Positions 40,552 to 46,437 of a stretch of DNA of 64,000 bases are shown one piece after another. Numbering within the stretch: position 1 is the first letter of the stretch; every line of letters begins with the position of its first letter. The translations under genes were made by a program, and so were the position numbers. The stretch is taken from the NCBI GenBank assembly GCA_009839745.1, contig VXPE01000041.1:89677-153676 (forward strand), in the 5' to 3' direction. A model generated the notes under the pieces. It worked only from the letters and a program-made list of their open reading frames with translations, did no database searches and was not told the origin of the DNA. Source of the DNA: Candidatus Poribacteria bacterium (GTDB lineage Bacteria > Poribacteria > WGA-4E > WGA-3G).

Positions 40552-40706
40552 CAAAATCTTTCGCATTTAAACGTCTGCGCTGCACAAACAAGACAGATGC
40601 ATCCATTCCAGACGAGTTCGCTTAAAATCGCACTCAGTTGAAGCCAAAGCACTTTTGCGAAATTAGTAGAGTAGGAACAAGGGATCACTCCCTTGCCCCT
40701 CTCTCC

Positions 40707-40742
40707 AAACCGTGCTTGCTACTTTCGCAGACACACGGCTTT
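40707..40742 (-). ncRNA. Group II intron domain V
   Basis: The minus strand reads AAGCCGTGTGTCTGCGAAAG then TAGCAAGCACGGTT. It has the AGC catalytic triad, a GAAA tetraloop and closing stem CCGTG/CACGG, the hallmarks of domain V. Confidence 0.92.
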
Positions 40743-40829
40743 CCATGTCAACAATAACGATATACGATTGTTGTTATATTTATACAATAATCAATAAAGA
40801 AAACCAAACAAATTAATTTTGCCGATTAC

Positions 40830-41246
40830 TTAATCCTGTGATCCTATAGTGTTTTGTCCTTTAACATCTTTTATCCTAATAAACGTATCTCGATTAGATT
40901 TTGGATCTATTCTCCCTGTTATTAGGTTTATTCCGTGTTGTCTACTGTCATAAATATCAGGGGTTATTAAGATATTAGATTTTTCGGGATGCGCTGTTAT
41001 AGAAATAACAGAATCTTGGGACGAAATTATAACATGGCTACCATCTTTATCGTTGTGTAGGAAGATTTGATTTTTACCTTCACCGACGACTAGAGTGCCT
41101 TTTATAACTACATTGTCAAATGCGGTTGTATTCTGTGGCGTTATATTAAGCCCTTCGGCTGTTAGATTATCCGTTTTACCTGCTATTAGCATTATTATTG
41201 TTGCTGTTAGCATACCGATAATAAGATAAACTATTTTGTCTTTCAT
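40830..41246 (-). CDS. Membrane-anchored protein carried inside the intron
   Basis: 138 residues. One N-terminal helix (KIVYLIIGMLTATIIMLIAG) is followed by a beta-rich, Asn/Ile-rich exported part with VVIKGTLVVGEGKNQIFLHN, HVIISSQDSVISITAH and FIRIKDVKGQNT. AAGGAAGG stands at a good distance from the ATG. It lies 46 bases after the intron-protein stop and before domain V, so it is inside intron domain IV. Base composition matches the intron, not the host. Family not recognised. It could be a cargo gene, perhaps an attachment or protective factor, but there is no evidence for a role. Confidence 0.72.
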   Translation of the reverse strand: MKDKIVYLIIGMLTATIIMLIAGKTDNLTAEGLNITPQNTTAFDNVVIKGTLVVGEGKNQIFLHNDKDGSHVIISSQDSVISITAHPEKSNILITPDIYDSRQHGINLITGRIDPKSNRDTFIRIKDVKGQNTIGSQD

Positions 41247-41292
41247 AATATACCTTCCTTTAGGTTGGTATCGGTTGAAAGTTATTGATTTT

Positions 41293-42966
41293 CTATGATA
41301 GATACGATTGCTTACTATGCAGTTCCCAATGACATTCAGCGTGAATTAGCGTTAGGTTGCTATGGCTGTTAGTTCCGCCTTTTGCCTTTGGTAATATGTG
41401 ATGGACTTGTAATTTATCAAGTGGCAATAAAGGATAGTTGCATTCGGTGCACTTCCCTTTTTGCTTTTTATAAAGTGATTTTCTATACTTCATAAATCTT
41501 TGACTCATTAGTCGTTCATCGCGTTTTTGCCAGTATTCTCTATCATCTTTACAATAGACTCTTACATCTTTCTTTACCTTTACATAATTAAGTATCGGTA
41601 TATCTGATAGCCGTGATAAAGTTGGATTATTTCCAAATGTTCTTTTGTCTTTAGCAAAATATTTGTCTATAATCCAATCATTGCTTTTACTATGTCTCCG
41701 TCTGCCCCATCGTAAAAGTGTGTGGTATACGTAGTAGTCAATTTTATTATAACTGACTTTACTATTTGTATATCTGTAATAATTTCCCCACCCTCTCAGG
41801 ATAGGATTTAGTAGTTTTATAAGTTGCTCTTGAGGTAGAGCAATAGACTTTTTGACTACTGTTTTTATAGAGGCACGCAAATTTTTGATCTTTTCTTTAC
41901 TCGGTGTTATCAGCATGATGTAATCACTTATATCTTTCGGGCTTGTTATTCCGCGTCTAGGATATTTCCTAAACGTAAATCCTAGAAAATCAAAGCCGTC
42001 TTTGATGTGAGTTATACGAGTCTTTTCTTCGGATAGCGTTAGATTTATTGTTTTATATAGAAATTCCGCTATGTCAATTTTGGCTTGTTTTGCTATCTGT
42101 TTGGATTTACACAGGATAACAAAATCATCAGCATATCTTACCATTATGTTATCGGTATGATGTCTGATGTAATAGTCAAAAGTAGATAAAGCCACATTTG
42201 ACAACATCGATGATATTACTCCACCTTGTGGTGTGCCTTGTGTATTATCTATAACTTTATTTCTATCAACAATTTTTGAGGTGAGTATTTTTCTGATAAT
42301 GCGTATAGCGTATATCGGAATTTCCCAAGTCCGTAAAACTCTTAATATGTGGTCGTGTGATATGTGGTCAAAACATGACTTTATATCGCCTTCCACAATA
42401 TAGCGTCTGCGATCTTTTCTATTCAAACATACGTATAGCATCATCATTGCATCTTGACAGCTTCGTTTTGGTCTAAAGCCGTAACTATCTTCGTCAAGAT
42501 GGTACTCAACAATTGGATCTAATGCTATTCGTAGAATTTCTTGATTGATTCGGTCTTTCATGGTTGGTATACCAAGCGGTCTTTGCTTTCCATTTGATTT
42601 TGGAATATAAGTCCGTCTGATAGCATCAGGCTTTGATTTGATATTGATTTCTTTTAGAAGTTTGTATCTTATCAGATTCTGATGTTCCCTGCTTGCTTGT
42701 GGCATTTTTACTCTGTCAACTCCAGCAGTGTTTTTGCCTTCGTTGAGATATGTTATTCTCCACACAGCAAGCACTTTTACCGCAAAAGAACGTTTTACCA
42801 GAATTGTAAAGATTGTGCGTATCTTCTTCTTATCGTTATTGGCAACCGCTTCGTCAAGTCTTTTCTGCATAGTCTCAACGTAGTTCTCACATTTTCTGAT
42901 ATTTTCAACAGAAAATGTGCGATCTGTTGTGCTGGCTATGGTTGCTTTACATGAGTTGTTAATCAT
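41293..42966 (-). CDS. Group II intron reverse transcriptase/maturase with HNH domain
   Basis: 557 residues. The reverse transcriptase has RRTYIPKSNGKQRPLGIPTM, YGFRPKRSCQDAM, TPQGGVISSMLSNVAL and the catalytic NIMVRYADDFVILC. The thumb/maturase region carries PILRGWGNYYRYTNSK. A C-terminal HNH endonuclease domain starts CTECNYPLLPLDKLQVHHIL and ends NLTLIHAECHWELH, with both CxxC-type metal sites. No frameshift or stop is seen, so the protein should work in splicing and retrohoming. AT-rich codon use differs from neighbours. Confidence 0.95.
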   Translation of the reverse strand: MINNSCKATIASTTDRTFSVENIRKCENYVETMQKRLDEAVANNDKKKIRTIFTILVKRSFAVKVLAVWRITYLNEGKNTAGVDRVKMPQASREHQNLIRYKLLKEINIKSKPDAIRRTYIPKSNGKQRPLGIPTMKDRINQEILRIALDPIVEYHLDEDSYGFRPKRSCQDAMMMLYVCLNRKDRRRYIVEGDIKSCFDHISHDHILRVLRTWEIPIYAIRIIRKILTSKIVDRNKVIDNTQGTPQGGVISSMLSNVALSTFDYYIRHHTDNIMVRYADDFVILCKSKQIAKQAKIDIAEFLYKTINLTLSEEKTRITHIKDGFDFLGFTFRKYPRRGITSPKDISDYIMLITPSKEKIKNLRASIKTVVKKSIALPQEQLIKLLNPILRGWGNYYRYTNSKVSYNKIDYYVYHTLLRWGRRRHSKSNDWIIDKYFAKDKRTFGNNPTLSRLSDIPILNYVKVKKDVRVYCKDDREYWQKRDERLMSQRFMKYRKSLYKKQKGKCTECNYPLLPLDKLQVHHILPKAKGGTNSHSNLTLIHAECHWELHSKQSYLS

Positions 42967-45817: not shown

Positions 45818-45877
45818 GTTTCACACCGACTTCACTACAGATTATCTCATAGGCAAAGGGCTTCTTCTTTCCGAATT

Positions 45878-45902
45878 GGTGCGGTTAGAAACCGCACCTA
45901 CC
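45878..45902. repeat. Palindromic repeat GGTGCGGTT..AACCGCACC
   Basis: GGTGCGGTTAGAAACCGCAC and CTACC match the copy at 9509-9532 in arms and loop. It lies just beyond the 3' end of the RNA candidate at 45922-46304. Confidence 0.7.
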
Positions 45903-45921
45903 GGGGTTGGTGACGAGTGAG

Positions 45922-46304
45922 AGTGATACCACCCACACGCTAAAGCGTCGGGCTTCGGCTTCATAGACAGTGCGGTTTTCTCTAAGAGTCCACCGTCTTA
46001 TTCCGTCTCCACCCGCAGGCAATTCCCTATCCCCCTGAAAAAGCGGGGTAGGCATATCGTGCGGAAACTTTCACGGGTATCCCTGCCTGCCTCTCACCAA
46101 AGGGTGAGAAAAGTTGAGAAGGCGGGCAGCAATACAACGTGCGAGATTTCACCTTCGCTCCGATTCACGCTTTCGCGCAATTACGCGTCAACTGCCCATA
46201 CATGTTTTTCAAGTGGTGTCACACTTAGCACTTTTTGACTCCCTCTCACAGGAGTGGACAACTCCCCAACAAGTGTTGGGGGTGAGAGCGTTGTCCTAAG
46301 TGTT
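45922..46304 (-). ncRNA. Candidate structured RNA with IS200/IS605-like right end
   Basis: This gene-free 380-base stretch follows a strong promoter. Its 5' part folds tightly on the minus strand. ACACTTAG pairs with CTAAGTGT. Inside, GGACAAC pairs with GTTGTCC around the hairpin CCCCAAC-ACTT-GTTGGGG. The next hairpin ACTCC/GGAGT shows GTGAGAG in its loop, complementary to CTCTCAC in the first stem-loop, a loop-loop or pseudoknot contact. Further stems are CTGCCCGCC/GGCAGGCAG enclosing TCTCACC-CTTT-GGTGAGA, and CCTACCCC/GGGGATAGG. The end, GAAGCCCGACGCTTTAGCGT, resembles the right end of TnpB-type elements, where guide RNAs end. No transposase gene is present. It may be an orphan omega-RNA-like relic or an unrelated RNA. 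Confidence 0.55.
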
Positions 46305-46310
46305 AAGAAT

Positions 46311-46339
46311 ATTAAACCACAATTTATGAAAAATGTCAA
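46311..46339 (-). promoter_or_regulatory. Strong promoter of the RNA candidate
   Basis: TTGACA (46334-46339), 17-base spacer, TTTAAT (46311-46316) on the minus strand, with no start codon or ribosome binding site in the following 380 bases. Confidence 0.72.
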
Positions 46340-46437
46340 GTATTTTTTTTCAAAAAACGCTGCAGCCTAACACACGAGGGCGGTTTTTCATCCCCAAACC
46401 TAAGGGATGGGGCTTTCACACCGAAAGGTTGGTAAAA

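Follow-up and report, generated by a model that had tools for sequence, protein, structure and literature searches.

A stretch of 64,000 nucleotides from the genome of an uncultured member of the Poribacteria (referred to here as the window) contains a segment that was predicted to specify a strongly promoted, highly structured orphan RNA, possibly a guide RNA that either outlived its nuclease or acts with a nuclease encoded elsewhere. The question that this locus raises is what an RNA of several hundred nucleotides that is not accompanied by a gene may do, and which protein it may serve. We consider it likely, with a probability of about 0.75, that the segment is a non-autonomous, tnpB-less IS200/IS605 transposon whose sole product is an omegaRNA for TnpB encoded elsewhere, i.e., acting in trans; the expression of the RNA, its binding by TnpB and the cleavage are inferred.

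Ends, target site and copies of the element

The whole non-autonomous IS200/IS605 (IS608-like) element occupies 509 bp of the minus strand of the contig (45923..46431; all features of the element are given on this strand and are read from 46431 to 45923). Its ends were set by aligning 39 copies from the genus, which have unrelated flanks, and by empty sites in relatives: the similarity, established for the three copies of this genome and then for the 39 genus copies, begins directly 3' of TTAC or TTAT and stops at ...TATCAC. The original prediction had placed the locus at 45922-46339, and the element is indeed located there, but its true extent reaches 46431. It consists of a left-end hairpin (CCCCATCCCTTAGGTTTGGGG, 46392..46412), which is kept in the copies and in tnpB elements, a TTGACA-17-TTTAAT promoter, a non-coding RNA of ~383 nt and the right end with a hairpin of 8 pairs (45932..45952, 97.3% paired). 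The presence of subterminal hairpins at both ends matches the criterion for IS200/IS605. No ORF for a Y1 transposase is found within the element, which is therefore non-autonomous at most; being protein-free and having a left end with promoter and a right end that match those of a tnpB element (L143), it also meets the criterion for PATE/MITE elements. Far from being an orphan, the RNA has many copies. There are three divergent full-length copies in this genome, the two besides that of the window having identities of 81% and 75%. Several further matches cover the right end only and are located directly behind tnpB genes. At the level of sequence, these comparisons show a mobile, protein-free IS608-like element with a structured RNA under a conserved promoter.

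It is known that IS608 inserts 3' of TTAC, which is recognised via base pairing with the internal guide AAAG, and that its right end is TCAA with the guide GAAT (PMC5934647). The element of the window is preceded by the target and cleavage tetranucleotide TTAC (C_L, the presumed TAM; 46432..46435, in the left flank) and contains the internal guide tetranucleotide AAAG (G_L, 46413..46416) and the right cleavage tetranucleotide TCAC (C_R, 45923..45926), which is the near-invariant end of the copies. TTAC or TTAT precedes 35 of the 39 copies, and base 4 of the target covaries with base 4 of the internal guide: C is combined with G in 22 copies and T with A in 10, with 3 exceptions, i.e., 32 of 35 match (Fisher p = 1.6e-6, although the copies are not all independent). 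TTAC pairs with AAAG in 21 copies and TTAT pairs with AAGA or AAAA in 10, while at the right end the same complementarity is kept between TCAC and the GAAG ahead of the hairpin. Judging by this covariation, the element would move by the IS608 rules. It is like IS608 in insertion after TTAC, in AAAG ahead of the left hairpin, in the absence of target duplication and in a TCAx right end, and unlike it in that the family has neither tnpA nor tnpB, includes TTAT/AAAA and TTAT/AAGA variants and ends with TCAC accompanied by GAAG.

The ~16 nt of flanking DNA that follow the element (TCTCACTCGTCACCAA, 45907..45922) are the predicted guide segment and differ in every independent copy. A guide starting at 45922 had been foreseen, and it is borne out by the flank-specific 3' sequence and by an RNA that ends as an omegaRNA does. 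The suggestion to compare the bases past 45922 with other insertion sites also proved productive. A close relative (L031) has an unoccupied site, GTAGTTTTAG|TCTCGCTCGTCACC, without target duplication, and the window guide matches this empty locus at 15 of 16 positions; a second, adjacent local repeat of L031 (...TTTTAA|TCTCACTCGTCACC) matches exactly. The empty site of L031 carries TTAG where TTAC is expected, and this, together with the one guide mismatch, counts against the explanation that we prefer. For another copy (L003), the unoccupied locus of the relative G023 reads TTTAC and continues with a flank identical to that on the guide side. A joined-flank search for the second copy of this genome returned a diverged match only and no clear empty site, which also counts against this explanation. 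When the left flank of L003 is compared with L267 from G023, ~1.3 kb between two TTAC sites are found to be missing beside the inserted element in its own genome; the segment absent at L003 holds helix-turn-helix, toxin-like and acetyltransferase genes in the related species. No viral contig matched the guides of the three copies of this genome with TTAN in front, so the comparison with phage DNA gave nothing and an anti-phage role of the guide, which we considered, is unsupported. A short REP-like hairpin repeat (GGTGCGGTTTCTAACCGCACC), present at dozens of sites in the genome, adjoins the element at 45875-45907.

Promoter, fold and modules of the RNA

The promoter consists of a -35 element TTGACA (46334..46339) and a -10 element TTTAAT (46311..46316; TATAAT in most copies) separated by 17 nt, both in the window and in 36 of the 39 homologous copies. 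At least 11 of the 12 promoter consensus bases are present in 29 of the 39 copies, which shuffled segments attain in less than 0.1% of cases, and the promoter is kept in copies whose spacers have drifted. A generic promoter scan missed it because the scan accepts only A as the second base of the -10 element. The consensus promoter and the ~380 bases without an ORF that had been described from a single sequence are thus both confirmed, the former by its conservation across the 39 copies and the latter because the transcribed strand contains only small ORFs (52-56 aa) that are not retained in homologues, and none that is long or conserved. That the RNA is made from the element's own promoter remains an inference, there being no transcriptome data for these uncultured organisms.

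Single-sequence folding gave z = -3.5 for the transcribed strand and z = -5.4 for the opposite one. Since the non-transcribed strand has the more stable fold, energy alone could not serve as evidence. Proof of the RNA fold comes from covariation in an alignment of 32 sequences, where 95.9% of the cells of 103 pairs are paired, 57 pairs have changed on both sides and 418 compensatory cells are observed, compared to 127 +/- 10 in shuffles; every slid structure drops to 38-46% paired. The stems that were predicted from one sequence therefore withstand the check with homologues. G-U cells outnumber A-C cells (241 vs 34), which implies that the minus-strand RNA is the selected molecule. The RNA is composed of three modules: domain I, domain II and an omegaRNA core that runs straight into the flanking DNA.

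Domain I (46200..46305, model R2, supported by covariation) is a 5' pseudoknotted leader common to tnpB mRNAs. Its pseudoknot PK1 is formed by 46282..46288 and the loop of hairpin P4 (46243..46249), and its 7 bp, Watson-Crick in 32 of 32 sequences with no G-U, have the strongest covariation across the whole alignment; the complementarity noticed earlier between a hairpin loop and the internal strand of the stem before it thus reflects a real pseudoknot. PK1 can also be formed (5-8 bp, mostly 7) in all 31 copies of domain I that do not belong to the standalone RNAs. Of 85 Poribacteria genomes, 47 contain the domain, and it is found in 35 of the 38 genomes of the window's genus. The tnpB mRNAs begin with the domain I fold written in wholly different letters, and the domain ends at the tnpB start codon: the junction reads ...TATACCATGAAAAC... 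in tnpB and ...AATACCACTCTAAAA... in the standalone RNA. In the tnpB leaders L145, L222, L224, L235 and others, the start codon stands directly 3' of the 5' pseudoknot domain. A pseudoknot domain in this position suggests control of tnpB translation. Domain I persists where there is no ORF, so a role in translation cannot be its only one; RNA protection, transcription through a structured region and TnpB recruitment are candidates. The possibility that domain I is an ordinary gene leader (of lipoprotein, rtcB and other genes) was mostly dropped; a second omegaRNA class aligned downstream.

Domain II (the P5 domain, 46124..46197, model R1), which is supported by compensatory pairs, was found ~52 times; the copies are spread over 21 of the 85 Poribacteria genomes, almost exclusively within one genus. 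All copies examined are nuclease-less elements, and the 3' flanks of the copies bearing this domain are almost all different. The need for domain II is not accounted for by a guide that acts in trans, and this is a point against the explanation that we favor. Domain II contains GGUGAAAG and was considered as domain V of a group II intron, a candidate that was rejected: the stem has 4 bp, the loop has 10 nt and there is no Rfam match.

Domain II is followed by a hairpin of 8 pairs (46091..46110, 96.9% paired) and then by the omegaRNA core, i.e., the right-end RNA (45923..46090), which is 84-87% identical over 168 nt to the right ends of the tnpB elements L143-L146. This identity confirms the proposed assignment of the 3' end to the right end of an IS200/IS605 TnpB element. 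Thirteen former tnpB C-terminal codons (QAGIPVKVSARYA, 46051..46089), which align with the tnpB 3' ends ...NILQAGIPVKVSTRYA*, are retained as RNA. Within the core, pseudoknot PK2 joins GATAC (46077..46081) to GTATC (45925..45929, positions -7 to -3 relative to the guide) by 5 bp that are Watson-Crick in 32 of 32 sequences, with a compensatory G-C/C-G change and no G-U; the consensus of the upstream partner is GATAS. In the ISDra2 omegaRNA, positions -5 to -3 pair with positions -105 to -103 (PMC10097598), and PK2 has the same register.

TnpB encoded elsewhere and the competing readings

TnpB relatives of L143 are encoded in 36 of the 38 genomes of the genus, with no more than 30 per genome. 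The L143 TnpB, a full-length protein of about 375 aa, has OrfB_IS605 and TNB domains with a readable D-E-D triad, and its best natural match in PDB is ISDra2 TnpB (E 1e-42). In the genome of the window, most copies of the closest TnpB clade are disrupted or run off the end of a contig, and the single intact copy shares 54% identity with the reference, which weighs against our reading; the presence of an intact cognate TnpB in this genome is likely but not proven. The same genome contains seven Y1 transposase (Y1_Tnp) matches, none of them inside the element. Of the two fates that had been proposed for the RNA, action with a nuclease encoded elsewhere fits these data, TnpB binding being inferred, while survival of the RNA after the loss of its nuclease does not fit a multi-copy family with a conserved domain of its own in a genus where TnpB genes are so widespread.

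If the element works as we propose, the RNA would be transcribed from the promoter within the element, and TnpB produced by full elements would bind it in trans. Y1 TnpA would peel the element out, resealing the TTAC and flank site, which TnpB guided by the element RNA would then cut, and repair from an element-carrying copy would restore the element and secure its retention. In this way the element may outsource both the transposase and the nuclease and supply only its own guide. A wider reading, which we hold tentatively and at slightly less than even odds, is that of an RNA-only transposon lineage of Poribacteria that parasitises the transposase and the RNA-guided nuclease of its relatives and carries a new pseudoknot leader, common to tnpB mRNAs and at least one other omegaRNA class, as well as an extra domain possibly aiding TnpB recruitment in trans or tnpB control.

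The ends, the target code and the Y1 transposase genes would explain mobility without any RNA, and the element could be a plain miniature transposon of the PATE/MITE type whose hairpins serve the single-stranded DNA transposase only. Such an element should have no functional RNA, however, whereas compensatory changes preserve the internal domains I and II and two pseudoknots along ~380 nt, the bias towards G-U over A-C is that expected of a one-strand RNA and the promoter is retained, and we regard this possibility as improbable. It is somewhat easier to imagine, although still unlikely, that the RNA is a decoy or antagonist that ties up TnpB without leading to productive cleavage or influences tnpB expression via the common leader: domain I is followed directly by the start codon in tnpB mRNAs and the extra domain II occurs in nuclease-less RNAs only. 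A pure decoy would nevertheless have no need for the omegaRNA core, the guide-proximal pseudoknot and the exact ends, all of which are kept.

The thirteen leftover tnpB codons, and the fact that a few copies (L135, L136, L234) are broken, could point to a tnpB element that has suffered an internal deletion and is now decaying without a function. This reading is very hard to reconcile with RNAs that keep a covarying structure and carry a domain absent from tnpB elements, and with the omegaRNA-core tree, in which the nuclease-less domain II type requires 3 label changes over 40 rows, compared to a mean of 23.5 after shuffling, with a few tnpB elements nested among it. On the evidence of this tree, the nuclease-less domain II family clusters as one radiation; with its many copies, it is not a relic. 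Adoption by the host as a regulatory guide RNA with a chromosomal target, like that of TnpB-derived repressors, seems barely tenable, for the positions and guides of the window's class are nearly all different, even if two copies of another class (L212 and L217) occupy equivalent positions in two species, upstream of an OmpA-like lipoprotein gene. An omegaRNA used by TnpB in trans remains our preferred reading.

Known systems and other nuclease-less sets

The guide of ISDra2 consists of ~16 nt of flanking DNA (PMC8612924). The RNA described here is like the ISDra2 omegaRNA, or reRNA (PMC8612924, PMC10097598), in that the right-end RNA overlaps tnpB 3' codons and has a right-end hairpin, the guide comes from the 3' flank and the last bases before the guide are pseudoknotted with an upstream strand. 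It is unlike ISDra2 in the absence of tnpB, in its own nearby promoter and in the ~383-nt length with two extra 5' domains.

PATE elements are non-autonomous, protein-free relatives of IS200/IS605 that are mobilised through common ends; unlike them, the element of the window has a promoter and encodes a complex RNA whose structure is under selection. Standalone omegaRNAs for IscB, i.e., guide RNA loci that have no nuclease gene next to them, were reportedly described by Altae-Tran et al. in 2021, whereas the RNA studied here is of the TnpB type, has a 3' guide, is located inside a mobile element and has a leader common to the nuclease mRNA. IStrons are TnpB elements with a group I intron and thus also possess a large structured RNA besides the omegaRNA, but the element has no Rfam group I intron match, so the IStron criterion is not met, and its internal promoter is at the 5' end of the RNA. 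The Rfam search recommended in the original prediction matched no known family: at gathering and permissive thresholds neither the element nor the leader from other contexts nor a tnpB element gave a hit, and HEARO (the IscB omegaRNA) had no match at the gathering score and none that was meaningful at E up to 5.

Neither non-autonomous IS605 elements nor standalone omegaRNAs are new as concepts. Rfam and the literature searched contained no match to the TnpB-type RNA-only family, the leader shared with tnpB mRNAs or domain II, although the literature on standalone omegaRNAs was mostly outside that search, and the architecture and the radiation of nuclease-less elements appear new. TnpB is regarded as the ancestor of Cas12, and the splitting of a guide RNA from the nuclease gene is a step that must precede CRISPR-like arrangements. 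Here, such a separation occurred in nature and was followed by diversification under selection. The 5' pseudoknot is a structured RNA without an Rfam entry beside tnpB start codons, which suggests that RNA-guided nucleases are regulated at the RNA level.

A further nuclease-less set combines, in shorter RNAs, domain I with a different closed middle domain and with omegaRNAs of two other tnpB clades. The existence of several nuclease-less sets with a leader and a guide RNA implies that tnpB was lost several times. A second omegaRNA class without a nuclease (L197, L198, L199, L219 and L220) has the same pseudoknot leader (for example, domain I at L198:2141-2244, minus strand) and a different core, which sits behind other tnpB genes elsewhere in the genome of the window. 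The two copies before the OmpA-like lipoprotein gene, L212 (545-644) and L217, likewise consist of domain I and a second-class omegaRNA body; their right-end hairpin is apparently lost, and they are possibly domesticated guide RNAs. Elsewhere in the window, a group II intron (40666-42966; Rfam domain match at 40666-40743, minus strand) with an intact reverse transcriptase/maturase ORF (41293-42966) adjoins a Rieske-type gene, and in the genome G083 the same gene is preceded instead by a short nuclease-less omegaRNA element (L211).
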